Virus record (IMG/VR): IMGVR_UViG_3300048437_000363
Location: 1 to 20,413 of that record
Strand: one strand, 5' to 3'
Source: a virus
DNA: 20,413 nt
A model generated the notes under the pieces. It saw nothing but the letters and a program-made list of their open reading frames with translations. It ran no database searches and had not been told where the DNA came from. The translations under genes and the position numbers were made by a program. Shown here piece by piece: positions 2,824-19,248 of the stretch. The stretch's first letter is position 1. The number at the start of each line of letters is the position of its first letter.

Positions 2824-3024
2824 ATGGGATTACTCACAGACGCTGGCCTAGCCAGTGCCATCAGGTTGGGCATTCCCTTTTGCCCTTCCTGTGGCAGGAC
2901 TCACAGTTGGATTCGCTCCACTAAACACGTAGCGCCTGGCTATTTCCGCAGAACTCGTGTCTGCCACCACTGCCAGCACGCCTTTCACACGCTTCAACCC
3001 TACGAAACTATTGAAAATGAATGA
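2824..3024 (+). CDS. Zinc ribbon protein, NrdR-like N-terminal type, 66 aa
   Basis: Four Cys in two pairs form a zinc ribbon: CPSC (C20, C23) and CHHC (C47, C50). The segment FRRTRVCHHCQHAFHTLQPYE parallels the zinc ribbon of NrdR regulators, where an Arg-rich strand precedes the second Cys pair and an aromatic-Thr-Glu tail follows; the ATP-cone domain of true NrdR is absent. Known relatives bind nucleic acid or act as protein adaptors. The gene directly follows the 48-aa ORF and overlaps the DNA polymerase start by 8 nt, so it is likely co-translated with the polymerase. A second protein of the same type is encoded after the sigma factor (6496-6756). Confidence 0.75.
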   Translation: MGLLTDAGLASAIRLGIPFCPSCGRTHSWIRSTKHVAPGYFRRTRVCHHCQHAFHTLQPYETIENE

Positions 3025-5436: not shown

Positions 5437-5646
5437 TTGGATCGCTATTCGTTGTTCATCCCTTGCGGGGACTCGAAAAGATTTCTTGCTGCTGTCTATG
5501 ACCTGACATCCAGTGGCATCCTTCTTACTGATATAGAGGAGGATGCTTGCTCCTATGTCACCATGGACAAAGCCGTTGCAGTGGCGCGGGAGTTAAAATC
5601 GCTCCATGGTTACGACGTGGGTATCTCGGTAACAGCAGATGCCTAA
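5437..5646 (+). CDS. Small hypothetical protein with TTG start, 69 aa
   Basis: Not recognised. The protein begins MDRYSLFIPCGDSKRFLAAV if TTG 5437 is the start. An in-frame TAA directly precedes this codon and no ATG or GTG occurs until residue 43, so a TTG start (5437, or 5452) is needed if the gene is real. It is a compact alpha/beta-looking protein (DKAVAVARELKSLHGYDVGISVTADA). Its last 8 bases overlap the sigma factor start, which argues that it is a genuine, translationally coupled gene and not chance open frame. Confidence 0.55.
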   Translation: MDRYSLFIPCGDSKRFLAAVYDLTSSGILLTDIEEDACSYVTMDKAVAVARELKSLHGYDVGISVTADA

Positions 5647-6496
5647 CGATGCACTGGGGCGTTATCTCACAGAGATTGGTCGGTATCCCCTGTTGGATAA
5701 ACACCAAGAGATTATTCTGTCACGGCAGGTCAGAGCCTGGACGCACACTGAAGAGCCAACACCTAAACAGGTAAAGGCTGGTAAGAGGGCGTACCACAAG
5801 CTGATTAACTGCAACCTGCGCTTAGTGGTGTCGATTGCTAAGCGTTCCACTGCAAAGATTAAGCGGTCGGAGCTGCTGGACTTGATTCAGGAGGGTAACT
5901 GCGGGTTGGCGCATGGGATTAAAAAGTTTGACCCTGAGCGTGGCTATGCGTTGTCCACCTATGTGTATTGGTGGATTCGGCAGAGCATCTCCCGTTACGT
6001 GAGCTGTAGTGACCGGTTGATTCGGTTGCCGTCCCACGCTGTGGAGATGATGGCGAAGCTCAGGATGTGGACTCCCAAGTTTGAGCAGGAGTTTGGCAGG
6101 ATGCCCACGCTGGCTGAGTGTGCGGAGTACTGCAGTACTACTCCCGCAAGGATGAGGATGTACATGGACAACGCGCACGACAGTATCAGCTTGGACGCAC
6201 GAGTCTCATCCACGGATGGTGACTCCACCCTGATGCAATTGATTGCGGGGGATATCAATTTGATGGATGACCTCGACATTTCTGTGCGTTCTGATTTTCT
6301 GGTTGGTCTGCTGGACCGTCTCGAACCAGTGGATAGGGCATTGATTGAGGGTCACTTTGCCTTGGGTGGGGGTGAACCCATGACGCTCCAGGCAATGGGC
6401 CAGCAGTTTGGTTTCTCTAGGGAGAGGGCTAGGCAGAAGTTCAATAAAGCACTTTTAAAACTACAAATTCTTGCTAAACACGCTCGCGCTCTTTGA
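5639..6496 (+). CDS. RNA polymerase sigma-70 family factor, group 2-like, 285 aa
   Basis: Directs RNA polymerase to promoters. Region 1.2: DALGRYLTEIGRYPLL (4-19). Region 2: NLRLVVSIAKR (59-69), LDLIQEGNCGLAHGIKKFDP (80-99) and YALSTYVYWWIRQSISRY (103-120), matching the core-binding and -10 melting/recognition segments. Region 3.0: IRLPSHAVE (128-136). Region 4.2 helix-turn-helix: MTLQAMGQQFGFSRERARQK (248-267). Region 1.1 is absent, as in group 2 sigmas, and the sequence reads most like cyanobacterial ones. At the -10-reading helix, Q115 is kept and S118 replaces the usual Thr, so a somewhat altered -10 preference is possible. It overlaps the upstream gene by 8 nt and ends in a TGATG overlap with the zinc ribbon gene. 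It probably drives phage middle or late transcription. Confidence 0.95.
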   Translation: MPNDALGRYLTEIGRYPLLDKHQEIILSRQVRAWTHTEEPTPKQVKAGKRAYHKLINCNLRLVVSIAKRSTAKIKRSELLDLIQEGNCGLAHGIKKFDPERGYALSTYVYWWIRQSISRYVSCSDRLIRLPSHAVEMMAKLRMWTPKFEQEFGRMPTLAECAEYCSTTPARMRMYMDNAHDSISLDARVSSTDGDSTLMQLIAGDINLMDDLDISVRSDFLVGLLDRLEPVDRALIEGHFALGGGEPMTLQAMGQQFGFSRERARQKFNKALLKLQILAKHARAL

Positions 6497-6756
6497 TGAA
6501 TTACCAACCAGTCAACAAGAACACTTGCCCGGAGTGTGGGGGAGAGTCAAGGGTAATGCGCACGTACTACACGGATGCCAATGACGTGGCGCGTCGGCGG
6601 TGTTGCAAAGTATGTGACCACAAGTTTTGGACGCTGGCTAGTGGTGAAGAGCCTCTATCCAATCGGGATTTCAAGGTGCGCTACCCCAGTAAAGGCACGC
6701 AGCGAGAAAGAGATAGGCTGGTAAAGATTGAGCGGCGGGTCCGGTGTCCAGACTAA
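6496..6756 (+). CDS. Zinc ribbon protein, NrdR-like N-terminal type, 86 aa
   Basis: Zinc ribbon with CPEC (C11, C14) and CKVC (C37, C40). The run ARRRCCKVCDHKFWTL strongly resembles the NrdR zinc ribbon (Arg-rich strand, Cys pair, aromatic-Thr). Behind it is a short basic tail (KGTQRERDRLVKIERRVR) and no ATP-cone. It is the second such protein in the window; the first is at 2824-3024. Start: ATG 6496 overlaps the sigma stop by one base (TGATG) and is preferred over TTG 6493. Co-translation with the sigma factor suggests a role in transcription control, such as a sigma partner or DNA-binding adaptor; this is inference from position. Confidence 0.75.
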   Translation: MNYQPVNKNTCPECGGESRVMRTYYTDANDVARRRCCKVCDHKFWTLASGEEPLSNRDFKVRYPSKGTQRERDRLVKIERRVRCPD

Positions 6757-7442
6757 CTATCGATGGCTTCACTGCTTTCTTTCGCTACTACCAGGGGTTG
6801 CCGCACCAGCAGCTGGCGGTAGCTGAGCTGTGGAAGCTGATGCCAGTTTCCCTGCTTGAGGAAGATGCAGATTGGATTGAGCAGTATAGGGGTAGCTCTA
6901 CACCTGTGCAGTTTGAGCAGTTCGTTAGTAAGCCCCAGCTGGCACAGATATGGGAGTGTGACCAGAGCCTCATCACTAACCCTGAAATTGATGAGATGAA
7001 TGCCTGCCTGGAGCGCTATGAAATTACGACGCCCAAGCGGATTAGGCATTTCCTAAGTCAGACGGCGCATGAGTCTGGCGGGGGACGGTACAAAAAGGAG
7101 CTGGCGAGTGGGGAAGCGTATGAGTTCAGGGATGACTTGGGGAATGATGAGGTGGGTGATGGTCCCAAGTACAAGGGTGCAGGGTACATTCAACTCACGG
7201 GTAAGTACAATTACTTACGGTTGAGTGAGTATCTGGGCGACCCACGGGTGATGGAAGGGGTGGATTATGTCGCGCAAAATCTGCCCTTTACTTCGGCGGG
7301 GTATTGGTGGGACGACAACGAGATGAACGAGTTGATTGATAGTGGTGCTGATGTCGTGGCAGTAACCCGCCGCGTCAACGGTGGTACGAACGGGTTAGCT
7401 GATAGGCAGCATTACTACGACATCTGCCTGCGTGTTATCTAA
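6744..7442 (+). CDS. Endolysin: glycoside hydrolase family 19-like lysozyme/chitinase, 232 aa
   Basis: Cell wall hydrolase for host lysis. The catalytic domain covers about residues 90-232: SQTAHESGGGRY carries the probable general acid Glu110, followed by the YKGAGYIQLTGKYNY signature of GH19 and lysozyme-like relatives and by VTRRVNGGTNGLADRQHYY at the C-terminus. The N-terminal part (FTAFFRYYQGLPHQQLAVAE to ADWIEQYR) looks like a separate helical module that often accompanies phage lysozymes, perhaps wall binding. No signal peptide is seen, so a holin or equivalent is expected elsewhere. The start is GTG 6744, overlapping the zinc ribbon gene by 13 nt. It converges on the fibre gene with a 4-nt overlap of stop codons. 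Confidence 0.9.
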   Translation: MSRLTIDGFTAFFRYYQGLPHQQLAVAELWKLMPVSLLEEDADWIEQYRGSSTPVQFEQFVSKPQLAQIWECDQSLITNPEIDEMNACLERYEITTPKRIRHFLSQTAHESGGGRYKKELASGEAYEFRDDLGNDEVGDGPKYKGAGYIQLTGKYNYLRLSEYLGDPRVMEGVDYVAQNLPFTSAGYWWDDNEMNELIDSGADVVAVTRRVNGGTNGLADRQHYYDICLRVI

Positions 7443-9229
7443 GCCCCTTCTAGGGCAGCGATACGAGCTTCAAGCTCTTCGTTCTTTGTAAGCACCTCTT
7501 GCAAAGCCTTAGTTAATAAAGGAATTAATTTCGTCTGGTCCACACCTTGGTAAACAGGTTGGGTGCCTGTAGGTGTCCAGGTGCGAGTACGAGTAACCAT
7601 TGTGGCTACACCGTCGGTCTCTACTTCCTCGGTGTACTCAAGATCTTCTGCTGATGGTTCAGTAACTGATACCTCTAGTTCAGTCCCGTCGTAATCAGCA
7701 AGGGTGCCGATTGCTTCAGTACCATCTTTAGTCCCTGTTACAGCTTCAGGGAGAACTTCTTGTAGTTCATGTGCAAGGAAACCTTTAATATTGTCAGTTC
7801 CACGTAATGTAAAACTACAAGGTTTTAAAGCTTGGATTGCCGTAGATGCAGATGCAAGAGGTTCAATATTTGTCTTTAGACGGTAGTCTGATGTATTATT
7901 AAATGCAGCACCAGCAGACGTAAGTTCAATAGTCGCCACTGCATTACCCAGTCCACTATCTGCAACAGGACCAATATAAAAACGAGTTGTTGGACCAGCA
8001 TTGCCACGGATTTGTTTGATTACATAGTTAGTTGCAAATCTCTCTGCTGTATCAATACTAATATTAGAGTTACCAACTCTGACAGCACCCTTGAAGTAAT
8101 TCGGTGCGGTGCCTGATGCGTAGATGTTGTAATTCTCTCGGTTACCTTGATCTGAAATTGCTGAACGGACACCGTGACATTTAGCAATGCCATCGTATTT
8201 AGAACCATTTATGCTAAGGGTGTTAATGTTTAGTCCAACTAGTTCGCCAATGGTATCTGTCGCCTCCCAATTATCCCAAACTGCGTTAGCTGAATAATAG
8301 GTTGCTACAGGAATGTTAGTAGGGGTGCCTCCACCGCCCTTAAATGTATTCTCGGCATCAATACCATTTACGTTATTTGTACAACCTGCAGGTGTTTCCG
8401 TCCGTACATTAAAAGCATACTGAACACCTGCATCAGTCAAGGGTGTGCCAGTAATGCTGTAAAACCTACTATTTGCAGTACATGACCGGTCGCTAATTGA
8501 TAATGCGCGACCGCTTGCAGAGCTAATGACTACGCGGTCATCAGTACCGCGCCACACCATACAAGACGTGGAACCAGGGTTTACGGTACCATTTGTGTCA
8601 AAGTCTTTTGTTGGCGCTGGAAAATAAATCGCGTTTGCATTGATATAATTTTTGTCGATGTAGTGCGCCCTTCTTGTACCGGTGGTGCCAGCGGTTGGAT
8701 CAAAGTCAGTACCGTCTATATCAAATTTAAAATCAACTCTGCTGTCTCTATCTCCTGTAATTTGAAGTGAATCTTCGTATCCAATAACACTATTACCTTC
8801 AAAACTAAGATCAGAAGTAGAGCCAGCACTGTTCGTTCCTAAATTAATATTTTTTGCTTGAATTTTGCCATTACTCAGCAGATTAATAGTAGTCGAACCA
8901 CCACCCGTAACCTTGACGCCTTCTTCGTGGGTGGTTACCCCGGTAAAGTCGGACGTTCCAGCAACAGATAAGTTTGTCGCTGCAGAGACACTGCCATTAA
9001 GAGTAGAAGTACCGGTAACGGTTAAATCATCTCCGACATTGAGATCTTCGTTTAACGTCAAGTCGCCTGTGACTGGTCCGTTTGTTGCGTCAAGCTGTAG
9101 GTAGATTGCACTACCGTTGTCTAGTGGATCGCCTTTTGCCTCCCAGTAACCAGCAGCGTTCCAGGTGTAGATAACACCGTTTGGAGCGGTCCAAGGTGAA
9201 GCGGATGATGCGGGAAAATCGAGTGCCAT
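7439..9229 (-). CDS. Tail fibre with C-terminal S74 self-cleaving chaperone domain, 596 aa
   Basis: Trimeric receptor-binding fibre. The N-terminus (FPASSASPWTAPNGVIYTWN, then AAGYWEAKGD) is a short module often seen on cyanophage fibres. Residues of about 40-440 are low-complexity Thr/Gly/Asn beta structure. The last 150 residues are a Peptidase_S74 intramolecular chaperone: SDYRLKTNIEPL (Ser447 is the likely nucleophile and cleavage point), GFLAHELQEVLPEAV, and a terminal coiled coil (LTKNEELEARIAALEGA). The family trimerises the fibre and then cuts itself off. It has a motif YNIYASGTAPNYFKG (from residue 367) also repeated in the neighbouring fibre, and a TTHEEGVKVTG block (from residue 99) shared with it. 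No Shine-Dalgarno sequence. It is the last gene of the leftward operon. Confidence 0.92.
   Translation of the reverse strand: MALDFPASSASPWTAPNGVIYTWNAAGYWEAKGDPLDNGSAIYLQLDATNGPVTGDLTLNEDLNVGDDLTVTGTSTLNGSVSAATNLSVAGTSDFTGVTTHEEGVKVTGGGSTTINLLSNGKIQAKNINLGTNSAGSTSDLSFEGNSVIGYEDSLQITGDRDSRVDFKFDIDGTDFDPTAGTTGTRRAHYIDKNYINANAIYFPAPTKDFDTNGTVNPGSTSCMVWRGTDDRVVISSASGRALSISDRSCTANSRFYSITGTPLTDAGVQYAFNVRTETPAGCTNNVNGIDAENTFKGGGGTPTNIPVATYYSANAVWDNWEATDTIGELVGLNINTLSINGSKYDGIAKCHGVRSAISDQGNRENYNIYASGTAPNYFKGAVRVGNSNISIDTAERFATNYVIKQIRGNAGPTTRFYIGPVADSGLGNAVATIELTSAGAAFNNTSDYRLKTNIEPLASASTAIQALKPCSFTLRGTDNIKGFLAHELQEVLPEAVTGTKDGTEAIGTLADYDGTELEVSVTEPSAEDLEYTEEVETDGVATMVTRTRTWTPTGTQPVYQGVDQTKLIPLLTKALQEVLTKNEELEARIAALEGA
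7440..7459. repeat. 20-bp direct repeat at the end of fibre gene 1 (copy at 9267-9286)
   Basis: TAAGCCCCTTCTAGGGCAGC is present identically at 7440-7459 and 9267-9286. On the minus strand both copies encode the last residues and stop of a fibre gene (AALEGA, stop). The repeat contains a 4-bp dyad GCCC/GGGC. Here it also contains the stop codon of the endolysin gene on the plus strand. Confidence 0.9.
8907..8937. repeat. 31-bp near-identical block shared by both fibre genes (copy at 10902-10932)
   Basis: Bases 8907-8937 and 10902-10932 match at 30 of 31 positions (the difference is at 8912/10907). Both encode TTHEEGVKVTG on the minus strand, at residue 99 of the 596-aa fibre and residue 419 of the 972-aa fibre. 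Identity at third codon positions suggests recent duplication or recombination between the fibre genes. Confidence 0.9.
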
Positions 9230-9265
9230 TGTTTTAAAAAGAAAAGGGTTTAACGGGTTGAAGGA

Positions 9266-12184
9266 TTAAGCCCCTTCTAGGGCAGCTACGCGGTCACGGA
9301 GGTCTTTAATAATGGTTAGCAAGTCCTCGGTCGTTCCAATGTATTCTTGATTTTCTACTTGATTACCTTCCTCGTCAGTGGAGTAAGTAGTTTGGAATGC
9401 AGTAGGTTCATCTGATTGCATCCGAAGGCTGAATGCACCGTTGATTAAACCGTTGCAAGTAATATCACCCTCGAAATAATTCGGGGCTTCGCCTTCTGCG
9501 TAGAAGTTAAAAGTATTTGCAGCCGTACCATTATTAGTGAGATTAGAATAAAAGCCTTTCGCGTCACTGGTTGTTGTAAAACTCAGAGCGGAAGAAGCTT
9601 TAAACCCGATATTATCTTTTGTATTATTGACATTAGTGTCTGCGTTAGCAAAAAACCCAATATGTTCAGTGGTTTTATCCATATTTAATATTGATTTTAT
9701 TTGAATGCCAGTCGTCATCGCCTGGACTATTAATCCTTCACCACTAACCCCGGCCCCGCCTGCGTGGCTGGTTCGACCTCGGAAGACTGAGGGTGCGGTG
9801 CCATCTACATACAGTCCATACGCAGTTTTACCGCCACCTAAGTTTCCATTCTGTTGTATGAACAAACCATAAGCAGTACCATTTGTTGCAAGCTGTGATG
9901 CCCCCGTGTTTAAAATATTTATGGCTCTATAGTCTGCAACAGACCCAGCACTACCTCCACCAGCGTTGACGGCTGGGTTTGTAATTTCTAAACCCCTCAT
10001 CCTAGCTAAATTTAAGTTTGTTTTTGTAGTTGGTTCATACGTATAAGGGGCTAACCTTAAACCGGTTACGTCAGTTGAGCTTGTTGATTCCGGTGATGCT
10101 ACAAGTAGTGGACATTCAAACGTAGTAGAGTAATAAAAACCTCTATACTTAACTTTCTCGATATTAGTAGCGCCTTTTGTGAAACCAAGTCCTCTAACTT
10201 GTGCGGTGCCGTCTGAAAGTAAGTCAAGTGTAGTCTTATCACCAAGAGCAAACGTATCTGTAAACGTTGCAGCTGCTAAGTGTGTTGGATAGTCAAGTTC
10301 ACCACTATCAAGCAGTGCTTGTGTTTCTGCATCTTGTTGGTCGTAGTACCACTGACGGGCGAAGCTACCGTCACCAGGCAACGATACATTTGCTGGTGCT
10401 ACTAACGTTCCAGCCTCTAGTGTCTCTAGCTGCTCTTCAGTAAGCGTTGACTTCCACAGTTCAAACGTGTTGCGTGATGTGGAGCCGCCGATGTAGGTGG
10501 AGCCTGCCAGGAATGAAGGTGCATCGCCATCTGCATAGAAGTTATATTCTCCTCCTGAACCTGAGTTGCTATTGATGAAATGTCTGGAGAAATATCCAAT
10601 AAGATTTCCACTTGTTGATACGGCGCTATTTCCTGCAGAGCTGTAGTTATATACATCTTGAGTTGTTGTTGGGTTCGCCGCCGCAACCGAACTAACTAAT
10701 GAAATTGGAGCCGTCGCTGTATCGCTTGAATCATTCCATTCGACTCTAAAACCAATCTTAGCGCCTGTGTTTAAATTCTCAATGATATTTACCTTAGCAG
10801 AGACACCTTCATTAAGGACAAACTTTACTTTATTTGCAAGGCTAAGGTTGATATTGCTGCCACCCGAAGAGAGTCCATTTGCATCACTAGGTATTGCGCC
10901 AGTAACTTTGACGCCTTCTTCGTGGGTGGTTAGCTCTTCAAACGTAATCGCACCAGCGGCGGTGTCACTGCGGACCTTGCTTAAGTACAAAACATCAGCG
11001 TCACTTTCAGTTAACGTGTCGCCCTGTGGTGATGCTTCAACCCATTGGTTTGAGTTAGCGTCTTCGTAATAGACATACAATCTGCCGGAATCATTACTGC
11101 TGTTCCACCACAGGTCACCCTCGGCTGGGCTGACTGGTGGGGTCTCACCGATATAGGTTTCGCTTGGTGGGAAGCTGACGCTAATCTCGCCCGCTGCATC
11201 TACATCAATGCCATCACCAACCTTGACGACACCCAGTGCTGATGCTGTAGCGATGTCTGCATTAAGGGTGTCGGGGTCGGTTGCAGCGTCGTAGGTAAGT
11301 GCGCGGCCTGCTAGTGGGTTTACATCTGCGTCTCCATCTTGTAGCGCACTATCTAATGCTGTCTTGTCTGCTGCGGTCATTAGACCTGCCAGCGTTGTAG
11401 TAGCAGCGGGAATTGTTACGTCCGCACCAGTGCTGCTAGTTACGTCAAGGTCGGTATCATCGCGGTTGGCAATGCCGAGGTCCGTTCCAGTGACGGTTGT
11501 TGGGATGTGGTCCCATTGAGGACCTTGGTAAATTACCCAGTCGCCGGGGTTTGCATCTGTTGCGGTAGTGGCGTTGCTAGTTGTTGCTGCCCACTGGCTG
11601 CTGAACTTGCCTGTGCCGGTGTTGGCGTATAGGTCTCCTTCGGCAGCGCCACTGATGACGGTGGCAGTTGTGACATCTACTGTGCCTTTGTAGCTGAGAC
11701 CTCCGCTAATAGTGGATTCAATCTTGCCGTCAGCGTCAAAGGTAAGACCCGCGCCAAGCTTTACCGCAATCTGGTCACCGCTGAATTCAAGCCCGCGAGA
11801 TGTGCTGATGTCAGCCGTAACCGTAATGGTCGTACCAATCGTGGTGGCTTCGATGCCGTCACCGCCGATGACCGTAATCGTTCCAGGGGTACCGCCGCCT
11901 CCACCGCTGCCGCCGCCAATCTCTACCCATGTTGTGCCGTTATAAAGGAATAAAGTATCGCCGCGTAGCCACCACTTGCCCAGGATGGGGTTGCCTGGTG
12001 CGTCACCCGCAACGGCACTAATAAATACACCGCCGAGCTGCACAATTTCACCGGCTGCATCCTTGCACTGCAGGTATGGTCCAGATTCGTTGTAGTTAAG
12101 TGCTAGTTCGCCTAACTCAAGCTGCGCTCCAGTGGCATTCTTAAATTCGACAGCACTACGTTTGTGCAGGATTTGAACTGCCAT
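9266..12184 (-). CDS. Large tail fibre / receptor-binding protein, 972 aa
   Basis: Long fibre-like structural protein. The N-terminus MAVQILHKRSAVEFKNATGA is a type common on cyanophage fibres, followed by GELALNYNESGPYLQCKDAAG and a Gly-rich hinge (GGGSGGGGG, about residue 95). Thr/Ala/Asp-rich beta repeats follow, then a module GDLWWNSSNDSGRLYVYYED (about 355-385) that resembles carbohydrate-binding-type inserts of cyanophage fibres. From residue 547 on there are three units of the form YxxYxxGxAPxxxxG (547, 789, 892), as in the neighbouring fibre. The C-terminus (LLTIIKDLRDRVAALEGA) is a trimeric coiled coil without an S74 domain. No Shine-Dalgarno sequence at the ATG. A 36-nt gap separates it from the 596-aa fibre. 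Confidence 0.88.
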   Translation of the reverse strand: MAVQILHKRSAVEFKNATGAQLELGELALNYNESGPYLQCKDAAGEIVQLGGVFISAVAGDAPGNPILGKWWLRGDTLFLYNGTTWVEIGGGSGGGGGTPGTITVIGGDGIEATTIGTTITVTADISTSRGLEFSGDQIAVKLGAGLTFDADGKIESTISGGLSYKGTVDVTTATVISGAAEGDLYANTGTGKFSSQWAATTSNATTATDANPGDWVIYQGPQWDHIPTTVTGTDLGIANRDDTDLDVTSSTGADVTIPAATTTLAGLMTAADKTALDSALQDGDADVNPLAGRALTYDAATDPDTLNADIATASALGVVKVGDGIDVDAAGEISVSFPPSETYIGETPPVSPAEGDLWWNSSNDSGRLYVYYEDANSNQWVEASPQGDTLTESDADVLYLSKVRSDTAAGAITFEELTTHEEGVKVTGAIPSDANGLSSGGSNINLSLANKVKFVLNEGVSAKVNIIENLNTGAKIGFRVEWNDSSDTATAPISLVSSVAAANPTTTQDVYNYSSAGNSAVSTSGNLIGYFSRHFINSNSGSGGEYNFYADGDAPSFLAGSTYIGGSTSRNTFELWKSTLTEEQLETLEAGTLVAPANVSLPGDGSFARQWYYDQQDAETQALLDSGELDYPTHLAAATFTDTFALGDKTTLDLLSDGTAQVRGLGFTKGATNIEKVKYRGFYYSTTFECPLLVASPESTSSTDVTGLRLAPYTYEPTTKTNLNLARMRGLEITNPAVNAGGGSAGSVADYRAINILNTGASQLATNGTAYGLFIQQNGNLGGGKTAYGLYVDGTAPSVFRGRTSHAGGAGVSGEGLIVQAMTTGIQIKSILNMDKTTEHIGFFANADTNVNNTKDNIGFKASSALSFTTTSDAKGFYSNLTNNGTAANTFNFYAEGEAPNYFEGDITCNGLINGAFSLRMQSDEPTAFQTTYSTDEEGNQVENQEYIGTTEDLLTIIKDLRDRVAALEGA

Positions 12185-12230: not shown

Positions 12231-12473
12231 CTAAGGAACTTCTGGGTTAATACCTAAGGCAGCCTCGATGGCAGACAGTCGAGCCACTATCTGATTGAGT
12301 CGTGACACAGGGTTACCTAAATCCGTAGATTCCCAGTAGCCGCCTTCGTCTGATGTGTCGGGCTGTTGCCAGGTAACCAGACTGTCTCCTGTGTAGTATC
12401 GGTCGCCGCCTGTCAGACCGGAAGATGTTTCTTCCAAGCTTCGGTCTTCGTATTTGGGAAAGCTATCGGTCAT
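12231..12473 (-). CDS. Small structural or fibre-associated protein, 80 aa
   Basis: Not recognised by family. The N-terminal part is acidic and aromatic (MTDSFPKYEDRSLEETSSGL, then GGYWESTDLGN). The C-terminus (NPVSRLNQIVARLSAIEAALGI) is a short heptad-like coiled coil of the kind that ends phage fibres. Its ATG overlaps the stop of the 1604-aa gene by 4 nt (ATGA), so it is translated with that gene. It sits between the giant structural protein and the large fibre, which fits an adaptor, fibre chaperone or small tail component. The 46-nt gap to the next gene contains a small dyad (CGGTA/TACCG). Confidence 0.7.
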   Translation of the reverse strand: MTDSFPKYEDRSLEETSSGLTGGDRYYTGDSLVTWQQPDTSDEGGYWESTDLGNPVSRLNQIVARLSAIEAALGINPEVP

Positions 12474-15400
12474 CCGTACACCCTCGCGTTCGACTGATAG
12501 TTACGCACGTAGTCTAGACCGTACACGATCTCGGCATATTTAATACCAAGCTGAATGGCTGCGGGTCCGTAAACATAGGCGTCATTCATAATCGAGGGGT
12601 CGTCACCTGGGGGGTTTACAGGGACATTGGGTTCTCCGACAAAGTTTTCGCCGTTGCGCTTAAATATCTGTGAGCGCAGTTCGTAGTTCCAGAACGAGCC
12701 TTGAGGAATTTCGTTCTCGGGTTTAGCGGTGGTATTGATTGCTCCAGCATCTTGACTTTGATGTGCCGAAAGTGTGGCTGACAAAAAGGAGGTAGGGTCG
12801 CTGCTACGTAGCCGCTGTTTCGTAAAGCCGAAGTTGCCAGCAACACCCGACTTCCTCGCTGGAACATTTGATGTCCTGTATTCGTTCCAGTGGTAGCGGA
12901 GTTGCCTGCGGTTACGCATCAGTGAGCCAAAAATACTATCGAAACCTGGACCCATTTTGTTAACATCTACTGTCGGAGTAGTTGCATAGGCAGCATCGGT
13001 ATTAACCATATATTTACCCTCGTTGGTCATTAGATGCCAGTTGGTGGAGGTAAGGTTGTAGTTGTATTGACTAGGACCTTCGATAATTCGGCGTCCATAG
13101 CGACCGAAAGCAAGTGAGACAGTTGCATCACTTGCGTTTTGTGCGGTGCTAATAAAGCAAGGTGCAAAACCGTAAAGTTCGTAGTCATTAATTCCGCCAA
13201 ACTGCGGACGTTGAGCGTTAGGAACAGTAATAGTGCCAGCAAAGCGGTTATTACCCACTAGTGTTAAACCATTGAGTTCCAGCACGGCTGTTCCGTCACA
13301 AGTAATTAAAGCACTGTTATCGCTCCTGCCGCCTCTGCTTGCGGCAAGCCCTATTGCAGTAATGCAAACGTTATCAGTGCGAAGCGCATTACGGACATAC
13401 AAAATTCCGTTGTTGTCGATGTAGTCAAGGTTGCCTTTGCCGTTCAACATGTAGAAGAACGCTGCGGTGCAAATGTCTTCAGGAGGCCGGTTGCGAACGT
13501 ACTCAAGCTCCGTTTGAGTTATCTCGCTGAACCAGCTGTTTGGGACAAACTGCGGGGTTTTTGGGTCGTCGACACGGTCTCCCTGTGCTGCACGTAGAGT
13601 TTCACTAACGCCCCACCAAGTGACGGCTTTTAGCGTGGCACGTTGACGAAAAGCAAATGCTAAAGGACGTAACGAGATACGATTGCGAGTGCCGCTGTTG
13701 ACCACCCTATAGTTGATTTGCGTCAAGAACACAGGCATATTGTCTGGGTTCCTAACACTCGATAGAAAAGTATTTTCGGGGAAGCGCCCCAGTGCACCTG
13801 TGTCGCCTTTTTCGTTCTCGACGGTCCCAAGCCACGGTGACTCGTTAAGGTCATCAGCAAAAGCATTGGTAGCAAAGTTGTAGCCGATAATGCTGGCGCG
13901 ATGCTCAAATACAATTTCGCCGTAGTCTTCTACATACAAACCACAACCGCAGTTATAGACGATGGCAGTGGCAGTGTTTAGTGTTGCGTTTGCGTAAGCG
14001 ACAGCCAAACGGATGTTCTTGCACGCAGTAGATGGCGTTAGTGGTGGATTGTTGATTAGCTCTTCGACAGTTGTTGCGTCCCAGTTGCTGGATTCGTTGA
14101 GAGTTGGGAAAATAATTTCACTTGCATCCGGACGGGTTGCACGGGGGTTAATAAAGATGTAGACCGGACCGGGCTGTGAACCGAGCAGACGGTTGCGACT
14201 GCGCCATGTGTCGAGGTAGTAGGGGGTAACAAAGCTGGGGCCGGTGTAACCGGTGGCGTTAAACGCACCGCTGAATTCGCCAGCTTCATTGGTGTCATTA
14301 AGTTCTAAGGCTTGCTCAGGGTTGACATCAATGATGTTCTGCATCGGAGCGACCCAGGACATGCCGCGTCCGGCGCTGGGCTCGTTTGCGTTGTCGCGAT
14401 GGTTCTTGACCAGCGAAACTTGGTTGCTGTCAATTTCGTTGACGGTCAGCTTGCCCTGGATGAGCACGTCGCCGTTAAAGGTGACAGTCTGGTTTGGATC
14501 GCGGTCACCACCAATGCCCTCGGGGCTTAGTGTTTCGCCCGTTTGCAGGTCAGTTAAGCCAGCGGCGGAGACACCAAAGCCTTCTTCGTTAAAGCCGCTG
14601 ACATAGCAGCGACCACCCATACTGTTGGTAAAGAAGTAGGTGAACTTGTTAGAAGCACTTAGGTCACGCTGATACTGCGGCAGTGCTTTCGTGTAGTTGA
14701 GCTGTCCAGCCCATTCAAATGCGTGGGAATATAGACGTATATTGCTGGGGCGACGGAATTGAATCTCCCAGTTATCCCATGAATTAGCTGCACCATTGGG
14801 TTGACTAATACCGTCGTACGCGGTGTTGGGGTTAAAGATTCGATCAGCGTCTGGCTTGGGGGCCAAAATAGTATGGGCATCTCCGCCGTTAAAACCGAGG
14901 CTTCTTAAGAAGGAGTACAGACCTAAATAGTCAGTAGCAGTACGAACCTGACGCTTTAGCTCGTCGTCTTTACTTAAAGCATCGACGTCATAACCAAGCA
15001 GGGGGTCTGCATTAGTTTCGTCTTGGTCTTTGTCAAAATAAATAATCGGTTGGACGTTTTTAAAATAGTCTTCAGCAGGATAATCTTCGTGCATATGCAC
15101 AAAGCATTCGTCCCACTTGGAGTCGTCAAAAGCTTCGGCAATATGCTCGACAGTACACTTCCAGTGCTTGTTGACGTAGCGCACCACGTCACCGGGACGG
15201 TAATAGTTGTTTGCTTGGTGGTAACCGCCGCTGCCTGAATCATCGGTGCCGATGTAAGCGCCGTTTTTGTCCCACTTGGCCGAAGCTGCAGCGCGACGAA
15301 GTTCGATTTCGTTTGTTCGCTGGACGCCGCCTTCAGCTTTTTTGATAGCGATGGTGCCAACGACAATCGGTTCCTTTTCGTTAATCTCCTCGTCGATTGC

Positions 15401-17284
15401 CGATGAAGCAGTGCCGGTTTGCAGCCCGTAATCGCGAACGATGTTACGGGAGTCAATTGCAGTGTTGTTGCAGATTAGGCTGTAACGACGTTGATCAACC
15501 GTACGGGTGTCGCGCAAACGACGAACATAAACACGCATCCCAGCGATTGGGGGAAGCACGCTGGTGGGATCGTCTGTAGGTGGAAAGTCATCGGTAGCCG
15601 AGACAAACGGTGCAGTAATCCGGATTGTGTCCTTTGAGCTGGTCCGCCAGGCACGGTCTGCCAAGGGCGCGTAGTAGTCAGGTCCGTTAGGGTTCTCAGC
15701 CCACAGCAGGTTGGTGCCGCCGTAGTTGTTCAGGCTTAGCCCATCAATCGCAAGAACGCCAGGGCGGTTCTCTTCCTCACCGTCAAGCTCTTCTTCAAGG
15801 GTGATATTCGTGGCACCGTTTCCCTCGCTGTCAACGATTGTTCCGAGGAAATAGTTAGAAATTTGACCGCTAAGAGATTGAATATCTTGGGCAGTCTTGA
15901 TAAAACCAACGTTCCAGTTCTTGTCTGTGTTAAAAGAATAGTCAACAAATCCGTCGGCTAAAGCACATACTCCCCCGAAATTTGAGTTACTATTTGTTAC
16001 GGTCAATTCTCCGCCGGAGCTAACAGCGTGGTGAACTCCTTGCCCAATTGCAAAAACTGAAACCTCTTGGATGATGGAACGGTTTACGCAACGGATGTGG
16101 ATGCTTCTATAACGCGGGTTCATCCGCACGTTGTCTGGGGTTTCGTCGATATAAGTGTCGTAATCAGCCTGGGCAATATCTACCCAGTTTCCGCTGTTGT
16201 AGCGCTGCCAACAGCGCATGTCCTTCTGCATCGAGATCGCGGTGTACTGCGCCACGACCATTGACTTGAAACCCTCAACTTGCGAGCCATCGGCAAATAT
16301 GCCCGACATCCCGTACAAACTACGAATTGAGCAGTTGTATATATAAGGTGAGGCTGATTCAACAGTGTCAGTAGATTCGCTCTGGAATCCAGGCAGTGGC
16401 TGCGGTCCTACGATTTGGACTTCGCTGTTGCGGGTACGCGCCAGGGTGCTAACGCCTGCTGCAGGTCCGAACGAAGCAAGGATCTTTTTGTAGAACTCAT
16501 CAACCCGTGCGCGACCTGCAAAGGAGAATGTGTCGAGCAGGTGGTGTGACTGGTTGTAATCTTTCTTGTCTAGGAAGGTAAATCCGTAGTAGTAACCCGT
16601 TCCAGTGACACGGAAGATGCTGGAGCGGTTGCTGTAGTCCGCTTTTTCTTCTTCAAATTTTGGGACATAGGTAGGACGTAGGTTTGTTTTGCGGAGGTCC
16701 ATGCTGACCACGCTGCAACCACGAGGCAACACAACGCCACCATCAGCAGCGTTGAATTTTTTAAGCTTGGATGTAGTGAATTTTGTTTTGTTACCTACGT
16801 CAGGGAAATCTGTTGCGTTATAAGGCGTGCCAGGGTCATTGATGACGTCGTGGACACCGGAGTTGACGACGATGGTTACAAGGTCGCCGCATAGATTGCC
16901 GGGTAAGTCGAGGTAGTCCTTGCTGGTAATAATGCCCGCTTCGATTGCAGCGCGGTTGATTGTTTTGAATGGACGGGCTTCGGTGTAGCCACACTCCAGA
17001 CGTTGGTTGGAGATGCGGCGCATCTTCTGCTCAAAGCTGCCGTCATCAGCAGCTGCATATTCACCGCCTACAAAATCGTCGCTGCCTGTATAGCTGTTGA
17101 CGTACAGGACATACGGTGCGGATAGAGGGTCATTGACAACAGTCGAACCACCTTCAATTTCTGCCTTGCCGCCCAGTTGGCGGACAGCATCCGTTAGCGC
17201 GTCTATCTGGTCGCGGTATTTGCCTTGAGGAATATCAAGATGACCAAGAGAAAATTCTTCGCCAGCCTTGTTAATCTCGGTCAC
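12470..17284 (-). CDS. Giant tail-associated structural protein (spike/fibre with beta-helix signature), 1604 aa
   Basis: Very large virion protein. After a short coiled-coil-like segment (RDQIDALTDAVRQLGG, 24-39) comes YVNSYTGSDDFVGG (61-74) and then PFKTINRAAIEAG (105-117), the N-terminal signature of right-handed beta-helix spikes. A later stretch (HAFEWAGQLNYTKALPQYQ, then NKFTYFFTNSMGGRCYVSGF and FNEEGFGVSAAGL) closely resembles large structural proteins of cyanophages. Several Cys are scattered (for example NCGCGLY). No membrane segments or peptidase motif were seen. The start is GTG 17284 with no Shine-Dalgarno sequence, 7 nt after the preceding stop. It probably forms a side spike or part of the tail tip or collar; enzymatic polysaccharide depolymerase activity is possible but unproven. 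Confidence 0.85.
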   Translation of the reverse strand: MTEINKAGEEFSLGHLDIPQGKYRDQIDALTDAVRQLGGKAEIEGGSTVVNDPLSAPYVLYVNSYTGSDDFVGGEYAAADDGSFEQKMRRISNQRLECGYTEARPFKTINRAAIEAGIITSKDYLDLPGNLCGDLVTIVVNSGVHDVINDPGTPYNATDFPDVGNKTKFTTSKLKKFNAADGGVVLPRGCSVVSMDLRKTNLRPTYVPKFEEEKADYSNRSSIFRVTGTGYYYGFTFLDKKDYNQSHHLLDTFSFAGRARVDEFYKKILASFGPAAGVSTLARTRNSEVQIVGPQPLPGFQSESTDTVESASPYIYNCSIRSLYGMSGIFADGSQVEGFKSMVVAQYTAISMQKDMRCWQRYNSGNWVDIAQADYDTYIDETPDNVRMNPRYRSIHIRCVNRSIIQEVSVFAIGQGVHHAVSSGGELTVTNSNSNFGGVCALADGFVDYSFNTDKNWNVGFIKTAQDIQSLSGQISNYFLGTIVDSEGNGATNITLEEELDGEEENRPGVLAIDGLSLNNYGGTNLLWAENPNGPDYYAPLADRAWRTSSKDTIRITAPFVSATDDFPPTDDPTSVLPPIAGMRVYVRRLRDTRTVDQRRYSLICNNTAIDSRNIVRDYGLQTGTASSAIDEEINEKEPIVVGTIAIKKAEGGVQRTNEIELRRAAASAKWDKNGAYIGTDDSGSGGYHQANNYYRPGDVVRYVNKHWKCTVEHIAEAFDDSKWDECFVHMHEDYPAEDYFKNVQPIIYFDKDQDETNADPLLGYDVDALSKDDELKRQVRTATDYLGLYSFLRSLGFNGGDAHTILAPKPDADRIFNPNTAYDGISQPNGAANSWDNWEIQFRRPSNIRLYSHAFEWAGQLNYTKALPQYQRDLSASNKFTYFFTNSMGGRCYVSGFNEEGFGVSAAGLTDLQTGETLSPEGIGGDRDPNQTVTFNGDVLIQGKLTVNEIDSNQVSLVKNHRDNANEPSAGRGMSWVAPMQNIIDVNPEQALELNDTNEAGEFSGAFNATGYTGPSFVTPYYLDTWRSRNRLLGSQPGPVYIFINPRATRPDASEIIFPTLNESSNWDATTVEELINNPPLTPSTACKNIRLAVAYANATLNTATAIVYNCGCGLYVEDYGEIVFEHRASIIGYNFATNAFADDLNESPWLGTVENEKGDTGALGRFPENTFLSSVRNPDNMPVFLTQINYRVVNSGTRNRISLRPLAFAFRQRATLKAVTWWGVSETLRAAQGDRVDDPKTPQFVPNSWFSEITQTELEYVRNRPPEDICTAAFFYMLNGKGNLDYIDNNGILYVRNALRTDNVCITAIGLAASRGGRSDNSALITCDGTAVLELNGLTLVGNNRFAGTITVPNAQRPQFGGINDYELYGFAPCFISTAQNASDATVSLAFGRYGRRIIEGPSQYNYNLTSTNWHLMTNEGKYMVNTDAAYATTPTVDVNKMGPGFDSIFGSLMRNRRQLRYHWNEYRTSNVPARKSGVAGNFGFTKQRLRSSDPTSFLSATLSAHQSQDAGAINTTAKPENEIPQGSFWNYELRSQIFKRNGENFVGEPNVPVNPPGDDPSIMNDAYVYGPAAIQLGIKYAEIVYGLDYVRNYQSNARVYG

Positions 17285-17291
17285 GTTCCAG

Positions 17292-18452
17292 CTAACTAGG
17301 TCCTTGCATTAGTTTAATAGGTCCGGTGGTTATAAACTGCGCGGTGCCCACAACCAGTTCAGTTGGGCGAACGTTGACCGCAGTTTGTGTGATTAAAATA
17401 TTCGCCTTGTAATACAGGGAACCGCCGATGGGTGGGAAGCAGTCGTTGCAACCGTTGCCTTCCATTACCATGAACCACGCTTCTGTTTCTATTGGCGCAC
17501 CACTGCAGCCGCCCTCAGTGTTGAACAGTAGTTGCATCATCATCCAGCTGGCGTCTTCTACTTCATCGCTGAGGCATGTGCGGTCGATGAAGAATTCAAA
17601 GCTTCCTCCACCGCTAACTAGGCTCTTGACCGCTTCGCCAAACTTCTCGCCCACGATGGTGGTGTCGATGCTTGGGGCGTCGAGCGTCAAGCTGTACTCA
17701 CGGATGCCGCATAGAGCCTGGGGGGAAGGCCATTCTCTATAAGGGCGGGGCAGTACATCGGCATCGCCGTAGTCGGTCGTTCCAGGGACAGGGAAGTCAA
17801 ACTCTGGGGCGGACTCGCAGATGGTGATGGCGGTGTCTTCGTCTTGGACGTCGCTCATGGCGTAGTCGCCGGTCTTCATGTAGCAGCCGTCGAAGTCGCA
17901 GTCCCAGCGAGCGTTTTGGTAGTCGCTTTCGCCGTAGGGGTAGACATCAATGTTCTCGTCGAACCAGGTGTTGGCTAGTTCGATTGGGGTGCCGCAACCG
18001 GAGATGGCGTTGCATCTGCTGTCGTAGAACTTGACCTTGCCAAACTCATCGATGTGGACGTAGTAGCAGCCGCCGCCAGTTTCTTCCTCACCCGGAACGT
18101 CGCCTACACCTTCCTTGCAATAGAAGTTTGCATCGTCTTGGCATTGCCCATCGGGATAGCACTCATTGGGTTGGTCTTTATATAAGACGTCCTTATCGTT
18201 TCGGATGTGGTCGCGGTTTGGACCAACGAAATACTTACTTTCTTGGTAGCTGGCGTAGCCCTCAACAAAATTGGGGAAGCCATCAATGAGGATGGGTAAC
18301 TTGTCGAGGCAAACTAAGTCGCCGTTCCACCAGCCGGGGCAGTTGAATGCGAAGGAGTCGCAGTCGGGGCGGAACCCTTCGTAGCTCAGTTCACAATTTT
18401 GGGGTGCGGGTCTCTTAAGTAGAACGCGACCACCGGAACCAAGAACTGGCAT
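17292..18452 (-). CDS. Cys-rich tail-tube-like protein with inserted domain, 386 aa
   Basis: Two parts. The first about 15 residues (MPVLGSGGRVLLKRPAP) and residues 248-386 (from CGIREYSLTL to TTGPIKL) read as a tail-tube-like fold and align by eye with the 138-aa protein encoded just upstream: REYSLTL/RNWSLTI, SGGGSFEFFID/ATGSATLYYD, LLFNTEGGCSG/SIFEDNSDCTG, and the ending TTGPI/ISGPI. Between them lie about 230 residues very rich in Cys (13 of the protein's 18), Asp and Tyr, not recognised, possibly disulphide-bonded or metal-binding and exposed. The ATG overlaps the upstream stop by one base (TAATG). It may be a decorated tube subunit, a tail-tip ring or a fibre attachment protein. Confidence 0.7.
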   Translation of the reverse strand: MPVLGSGGRVLLKRPAPQNCELSYEGFRPDCDSFAFNCPGWWNGDLVCLDKLPILIDGFPNFVEGYASYQESKYFVGPNRDHIRNDKDVLYKDQPNECYPDGQCQDDANFYCKEGVGDVPGEEETGGGCYYVHIDEFGKVKFYDSRCNAISGCGTPIELANTWFDENIDVYPYGESDYQNARWDCDFDGCYMKTGDYAMSDVQDEDTAITICESAPEFDFPVPGTTDYGDADVLPRPYREWPSPQALCGIREYSLTLDAPSIDTTIVGEKFGEAVKSLVSGGGSFEFFIDRTCLSDEVEDASWMMMQLLFNTEGGCSGAPIETEAWFMVMEGNGCNDCFPPIGGSLYYKANILITQTAVNVRPTELVVGTAQFITTGPIKLMQGPS

Positions 18453-18868
18453 TAGAACGTACCGTCAATTGGTCCGCTTATTTGGAACGACACTTGCACT
18501 GCTGTAGCTGCACCGACTTCAACCGCTGGGCTGATGTTTGTGATTAGGGCCTCAGCTTCAAAATTGCCGGGTTGGTTTGCACAGCTATTTAAGAAGAACG
18601 AAACCGATTGCAAGCAGGTCGTTCCAGTGCAGTCACTGTTGTCTTCAAAGATTGAGTTGAGTAGTGAGCGGTCGGTTTGCTGGGTTGGGTCGTAGTAAAG
18701 AGTGGCTGAACCAGTGGCGGAACGTAGCCCAGCGACATACTCGCGGTCGTAAGTATTAAGGCATGACACCTCGATGGCATCACGCTGGATGGTAAGGCTC
18801 CAGTTGCGGACCTTTACGCAGGTGCCGTTCCCGTACTTCAACTGCCCGTCTGCACCTGTCAATATCAT
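18452..18868 (-). CDS. Tail-tube-like structural protein, 138 aa
   Basis: Beta-rich small protein starting MILTGADGQLKYGNGTCVKV and continuing RNWSLTIQRDAIEVSCLNTY, REYVAGLRSATGSATLYYDP, FEAEALITNISPAVEVGAAT and VQVSFQISGPI. This layout (Gly-rich start, WSLT strand, two-residue turns, closing strand with SFQISG) is that of siphovirus tail tube subunits (gpV-like family), though it is shorter. Position argues for caution: tube genes normally lie before the tape measure and hub, but here it follows the hub. It might therefore be a tail-tip or hub-associated ring using the tube fold. It overlaps the upstream gene by 4 nt (ATGA) and the Cys-rich paralogue by 1 nt. Confidence 0.65.
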   Translation of the reverse strand: MILTGADGQLKYGNGTCVKVRNWSLTIQRDAIEVSCLNTYDREYVAGLRSATGSATLYYDPTQQTDRSLLNSIFEDNSDCTGTTCLQSVSFFLNSCANQPGNFEAEALITNISPAVEVGAATAVQVSFQISGPIDGTF

Positions 18869-19248
18869 GAGTTGATCTCCAGTTGTGCAATGAAACGGGT
18901 GTTGATGCGGTAGAGATTTGGATTGAGGGATTCAACCGTGGGGTTCTCTGCCCAGTGCCATTCTAAATACTCAGGGACAAGTTCATCCAATAGTTGATCA
19001 TTGCTGGAAACAACTGAGTCAGGAAGCTCCACCGGGAGGTACGTCCCATAGCTGGCTTCCCAGTTGTCCATGATTGCGACAAGGATGGTTTCATCTACTA
19101 AAAATTGAACGGTAAGTTCGGCGTCAAAACCTTTGTTGCCATACAAACGGGTCGTTCCAGCGCCGCTGATTGACGTGAACCGTTTTGTGGCAAAGCTTGG
19201 TGCCTTATAGCGGCGGGAGACAGGGCAGACGTAAGGGAAATCAGCCAT
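18865..19248 (-). CDS. Small minor tail protein, 127 aa (possibly gpM-like)
   Basis: Soluble, beta-rich protein (MADFPYVCPVSRRYKAPSFA, then GTTRLYGNKGFDAELTVQFL, EYLEWHWAENPT and LYRINTRFIAQLEINS). The pattern of an early aromatic-basic strand, a strand-loop-strand leading to IMDNWEASYG, and a final strand with RFIAQLE is reminiscent of lambda gpM-type minor tail proteins, but the match is loose and the gene order (after the hub, not before) differs. It overlaps the hub gene by 8 nt and the tube-like gene by 4 nt, so it is part of the same translationally coupled operon. Confidence 0.6.
   Translation of the reverse strand: MADFPYVCPVSRRYKAPSFATKRFTSISGAGTTRLYGNKGFDAELTVQFLVDETILVAIMDNWEASYGTYLPVELPDSVVSSNDQLLDELVPEYLEWHWAENPTVESLNPNLYRINTRFIAQLEINS

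Follow-up and report, generated by a model that had tools for sequence, protein, structure and literature searches.

Results

Genes at the locus

The window (the whole stretch of DNA analysed, a virus record of 20,413 nucleotides) ends in a run of tail genes, among them the genes for two proteins of 138 and 386 residues that concern us here and that we call, by their lengths, the 138 and 386 proteins (Table 1). The stop codon of the 138 gene and the start codon of the 386 gene share one base (TAATG). Between 127 and 138 the overlap is four bases, an arrangement that suggests co-translation of the genes. An open reading frame check returned the coordinates that a preliminary description of this DNA, made from its letters alone, had given for the 386-aa and 138-aa genes.

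Table 1. Tail genes and protein regions at one end of the window
Feature	Positions	Strand	Description
Source record, 20,413-bp virus record of IMG/VR, IMGVR_UViG_3300048437_000363	1 to 20,413		
386-aa tail-tube paralogue	17292..18452	(-)	residues 1-15 first strand, 16-247 insert, 248-383 remaining tail-tube domain
Inserted region of the 386 protein	17712..18407	(-)	residues 16-247; 13 Cys; better-predicted parts 20-60 and 131-170
138-aa tail-tube paralogue without insert	18452..18868	(-)	phrog_10528, major tail protein, 8.6e-12
127-aa minor tail protein	18865..19248	(-)	phrog_15525; possibly distal-tail ring protein
gpJ-like hub (tip) protein, C-terminal 390 residues	19241..20413	(-)	cut by contig end
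1604-aa tail fibre	12470..17284	(-)	residues 1-98 group-specific; 99-538 like Synechococcus and Prochlorococcus phage fibres

Elsewhere in the window, two fibre-like proteins of 972 and 596 aa (7439-12184 (-)) have short similar stretches (THEEGVKVTG; N-YA-G-APNYF-G), with a Peptidase_S74 chaperone domain at the end of the smaller one. There are also a complete sigma-70-type factor (regions 1.2 to 4; 5639-6496 (+)), a kind of gene also annotated, as RNA polymerase sigma factors, in the records of S-LBS1 and S-CBS1; a Glycoside hydrolase 19-like protein, possibly a lysin (6744-7442 (+); E 0.00026, below the curated cut-off); and two small proteins (2824-3024 (+) and 6493-6756 (+)) with NrdR-like zinc-ribbon matches below the curated cut-off. 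Searches of the window for tRNAs and Rfam families found none.

Relatives and gene order

Relatives were collected from IMG/VR in two scans: a two-sequence alignment query gave 37 loci with the 386 family, and 80 loci came from a scan with a relative's true major tail protein (MTP). The gene order across them is nearly fixed—MTP, TAC, tape measure, 158, J, 127, 138, 386, fibre—with the part from 158 to the fibre present in almost all of the first 37 loci, as far as the contigs reach, and with the cassette downstream of the MTP, by profiles, in many of the 80. The 386 gene follows the 138 gene in 46 of 47 loci (L058 is the exception), with the one-base overlap in 33 of the 46, and the fibre gene follows the 386 gene in 29 of 31; these counts are over loci, and one contig is counted twice. 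The preliminary description had remarked on the neighbouring "spike" gene, and that neighbour is indeed a fibre gene whose link to the cassette is conserved.

By profile, J and the 127 protein are tail or tail-tip proteins. J resembles the lambda tip protein gpJ (0.004-0.01) and the 158 protein resembles gpL weakly; for the 127 family, the match to Dit/DUF2460 was very weak (0.14) and came from one family member only, the 386 protein giving no such match in profile searches, and searches of PDB and Pfam with the 127 profile gave nothing firm. As a candidate relative of the 138 protein, the 127 protein was rejected, the profile-profile comparison not being significant. In two relatives the 127-aa protein is much extended, to 1209 aa (L017 2234-5863) and 583 aa (L020 5752-7503), which shows that large additions occur in this neighbouring, putative ring protein too. 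In the cultured phages S-CBS1 and S-LBS1, 138 and 386 went undetected, and the 127 family (phrog_15525) is present twice in each (L009 9716-10605, L007 8999-10432); tip-protein duplication in these two phages took a different route.

The fibre is a composite in its matches. For residues 99-538 there are matches to fibres in 458 records of cyanophages, and residues 1-98, conserved within the group (median 48% identity in 29 relatives), match no record among 50,697 phages. J matches phages of Synechococcus and Microcystis, and the 127-family protein of a relative matches that of S-LBS1; from these sequence matches, together with those of the fibre, the hosts are likely to be cyanobacteria. A sheath profile run over six related records of 39-56 kb found none, and the tail is therefore probably non-contractile, that of a siphophage.

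Three tail-tube paralogues

Among PHROGs, the 138 protein matches "major tail protein" families, phrog_10528 best of all; the 386 protein has no useful match to PHROG or Pfam profiles (none placed it in an unrelated family), and a PDB sequence search with its profile found no relevant match. The preliminary description had held the 138 protein and the C-terminal part of the 386 protein to be homologous, and for residues 248-383 this is what BLASTP, shuffling and profiles all say. BLASTP aligns residues 250-379 of the 386 protein to residues 20-134 of the 138 protein with 23% identity (E = 4e-5); the Smith-Waterman score of 73 was reached by 0 of 2000 shuffles (mean 28, maximum 53); and the profile-profile comparison gives E = 3.8e-7, or 1.1e-10 with wider families. 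The link between residues 1-15 and the N-terminal strand of the 138 protein, also part of that description, is weaker and comes from family alignments, the global 386-MTP profile alignment and structure alignments, which are consistent with a tube domain split by the insert.

Each of the two proteins scores nearer to the MTP (9.5e-17 for 138-MTP and 1.9e-13 for 386-MTP, profile versus profile) than to the other. In a tree of the tube domain, MTP (SH-aLRT 99), 386 (95) and 138 (80) each make up one side of a branch; the tree has 130 columns and long branches, and the order of its splits is unsettled. With three separate clades, the copies must be old, each with its own line of descent, and the pair in the window is no recent tandem duplication. 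The "duplicated pair" of the preliminary description is thus a pair of homologous tail-tube copies but no simple pair, there being a third copy, the MTP, of which each is an old paralogue. All three genes lie on 17 contigs (13 distinct ones within single loci, and the records of L024, L032, L012 and L020, for which the loci of one record were combined). The contig does not reach the MTP of the window's phage, whose three-copy state is read from relatives such as the L012 record, which belongs to the window's near clade (386 protein 59% identical) and has an MTP of 377 residues. In L058 (10801-12499), two 138-like genes stand in tandem before a 386-like gene, which with the MTP makes four tube-like proteins.

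Judged by sequence, then, the 138 protein and the core of the 386 protein belong to the phage tail-tube (MTP-like) family. The distant relatives of the 138 protein found in cultured phages are MTPs of cyanophages and others; the 386 protein, its L006 relative and its short relative from L116 matched nothing in cultured phages. Among bacterial and archaeal genomes, 45 matches to one short N-terminal pattern, a weak probe, included 0 relatives and so no evidence of a prophage.

AlphaFold2 gave poor models, with mean pLDDT of 59.2 for the 386 protein (residues 1-60 and 131-170 mostly at 70-87) and 65.0 for the 138 protein. In structure alignment (Foldseek was also run), the PDB matches of both models, at a modest Z of 7-10, include many tubes of tails and baseplates as well as Hcp proteins, and each model separately matched the same chains (6gkx, 8kee, 6yeg, 9b45, 8fqc), so that, to the extent that models of such low confidence show, the case in which the two folds do not superpose did not arise. 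The aligned residues of the 386 model (93-123 of them) mostly span from residues 1-8 to 377-386. The list for the 138 model also holds unrelated small sandwiches (flavin reductases, PilZ domains) at similar Z, and since such middling values are common, sequence homology is the stronger evidence.

The insert and its cysteines

The domain that the preliminary description saw inserted in the larger copy is there, after the first strand, in the first (beta1-beta2) hairpin of the tube domain. It is not special to the window: the whole 386 family has it, and it is absent from the 138 protein. Its length in the family runs from 111 to about 240 aa: distant members (L116, L058, L102) have 111-123 residues, L044 and L027 have 146-163, and the window's protein has 232. 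By eye, in alignments, the short members keep the centre, a GD motif and Y-hVD-lGgirlY, corresponding to window residues near 44-45 and 130-143. Compared with the nearest relative, the insert is 55% identical and the tube core 73%; with distant ones the figures are 16-19% and 39%. No Pfam or PHROG profile matches the insert, carbohydrate-binding profiles included, and in a structure search with the whole 386 model, it gave no separate match.

In the MTPs of the group the same site is also occupied by an insert, of either 89-114 or 205-231 residues; insert length sets two size classes of MTP, 244-273 and 362-389 aa (L048 1468-2601, L094-L111), and some MTPs have up to 12 Cys. We considered and rejected homology between the two kinds of insert. 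A GD.V motif in both looks similar by eye, and the local whole-protein 386-MTP alignment reaches past the core; the inserts alone did not reproduce this, insert-only profiles giving local E values of 0.06-0.22, within the range of unrelated control pairs (0.06-0.89), so that what MTP and 386 share is only the insertion site.

Residues 16-247 hold 13 Cys, exactly the number counted in the preliminary description, which proposed a disulphide-stabilised or metal-binding domain; the whole 386 protein has 18 and the 138 protein 5. Across the 386 family the number of Cys in a protein varies from 2 to 15. The near relatives have C31, C48, C129, C147, C153, C185, C190, C212 and C248 in common, and C20/C38 and C98/C104 are each gained or lost together among the nearest relatives; most of the window's Cys positions are not kept beyond the nearest clades, and a distant clade has almost none there. 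No Pfam or PHROG match to a known Cys-rich or metal-binding domain and no family-wide Cys pattern was found in residues 16-247. So lineage-specific a pattern argues against an essential metal site, which is unlikely, and fits disulphides peculiar to a lineage, so that, of the earlier proposal, the disulphides stay possible.

Discussion

What might two spare tail-tube proteins be doing between a hub and a fibre? We propose that the 138 and 386 proteins are paralogues of the MTP that turned into tail-tip proteins of a siphophage, probably one that infects cyanobacteria. The tube domain of the 386 protein (residues 1-15 plus 248-383) would have been retained for stacking, and the variable domain in its beta1-beta2 hairpin would be placed on the outer surface, where it should face because inside the tube it would block the channel. 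There, the insert would most likely form the collar where the N-terminal adaptor of the 1604-aa fibre docks, and the 386 protein would then work like p140 plus p132 of phage T5, partly within one polypeptide. We infer the rings, their position, the outward insert and the docking. The preliminary description suggested that the insert could decorate the tail or attach spikes; the conserved adjacency of the fibre gene suits the latter, although neighbouring genes do not by themselves establish contact between their products. That both proteins form tail-tip rings like those of p140, with the 386 insert docking or bracing the fibre, is the reading towards which we lean, if modestly. The bolder form of it, in which the insert itself is the docking platform for a cyanophage-type fibre through a group-specific N-terminal adaptor, the functions of p140 and p132 having been joined independently in one protein, we put forward tentatively, as something that may well not be so.

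The main rival gives the insert a different partner. If the 386 protein were a Dit-like distal tail ring, its insert could bind host carbohydrate directly, without holding a fibre, much as the distal tail protein of RcGTA is tube-like with an additional insertion domain that is believed to bind sugar (PMC7296036) and as the OB-fold insertions of the RcGTA and T5 Dit proteins are proposed to bind carbohydrate; an insert that diverges faster than its tube core is what one would expect to see. However, the usual minor-tail/Dit place beside the hub is already filled by the 127-aa phrog_15525 protein, whose family also occurs in S-CBS1 and S-LBS1 without a detectable 138 or 386, and the insert matches no carbohydrate-binding profile. 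We regard this alternative as unlikely, though it is a reading to be taken seriously.

Nor need the protein be at the tip at all. Inserts are evidently tolerated along the tube, given that the MTP of these same phages has one at the same site, and the 386 protein might be interspersed in small amounts among the MTP rings, its insert a surface adhesin; yet its gene is grouped with those of the hub, the Dit-like protein and the fibre, far from the MTP gene and downstream of the tape measure, and 138, 386 and MTP fall into separate clades, which makes such mixing improbable. Least of all do we expect that the insert is a Cys-rich module, disulphide-stabilised or metal-binding, whose chemistry is its function. 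Thirteen Cys in 232 residues invite the thought, and C20/C38 and C98/C104 co-vary as disulphide pairs would, but with the number of Cys so uneven from member to member, and a distant clade almost bare of them at these positions, they are at most a stabilising feature of one lineage.

Neither duplicated tube proteins at the tail tip nor inserts in proteins of tube type are new. Cryo-EM has found one fold shared by stopper, terminator, tube and distal proteins and by parts of the hub (PMC7296036, PMC10721106). Among tubes, a beta-sandwich is inserted into the MTP of the siphophage YSD1 as its domain2 (PMC8718954), although there it lies between alpha1 and beta4, and the protein that carries it builds the main tube instead of being a tip paralogue. 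The Dit proteins of RcGTA, T5 and R4C likewise join a tube-like domain to an outward insertion domain at the tip (PMC7296036, PMC10276861); unlike them, the 386 protein has its homology to MTPs, stands beside a separate Dit-looking 127-aa protein and shares no insert homology that we found. The closest cultured relatives, the MTPs of the cyanosiphophages S-H1 and MED4-117 and those of phrog_10528, are 26-35% identical to the 138 protein or its ortholog, but they are encoded amid the head-tail genes or ahead of the tape measure, whereas 138 comes downstream of the hub gene. (In Synechococcus phage S-H1, two tube-like proteins of 138 and 140 aa are encoded side by side upstream of its tape measure; L008 9582-10423.) Phage T4, as cited in PMC10038345, offers in gp54 an extra tube-like ring between baseplate and tube, in a tail that is contractile.

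Siphophage side-fibre attachment is structurally known for few phages, and here we have a widespread uncultured group with three tail-tube paralogues in a fixed gene order ending in a fibre; we found no report in the open-access literature of a conserved set of three paralogues in which the copy beside the fibre bears an insert. The analysis also annotates a gene family that had no useful Pfam, PHROG or cultured-phage match. The nearest likeness is to T5, where p140, a TTP duplicate at the tip, is encircled by a p132 collar bearing the fibres (PMC10038345). There as here—in the relatives, which encode a paralogue of their own tube protein among their tip genes—a tube paralogue sits among tip genes, and p140, which is located where the side fibres attach, is thought to have arisen by duplication of the tube gene (PMC10038345); we draw this likeness from gene position and paralogy. 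The T5 authors called their mode of fibre anchoring a landmark of T5-like phages only, expecting that it would differ elsewhere (PMC10038345). Where p140 has no decoration domain and the separate p132 makes the collar, here there are two tip paralogues, one with a large insert; and where the collar-bearing ring of T5 has no insert, here the insert-bearing copy adjoins the fibre gene, a difference that counts against the parallel. Our reading makes the 386 insert and fibre residues 1-98 a candidate interface that can be put to the test.
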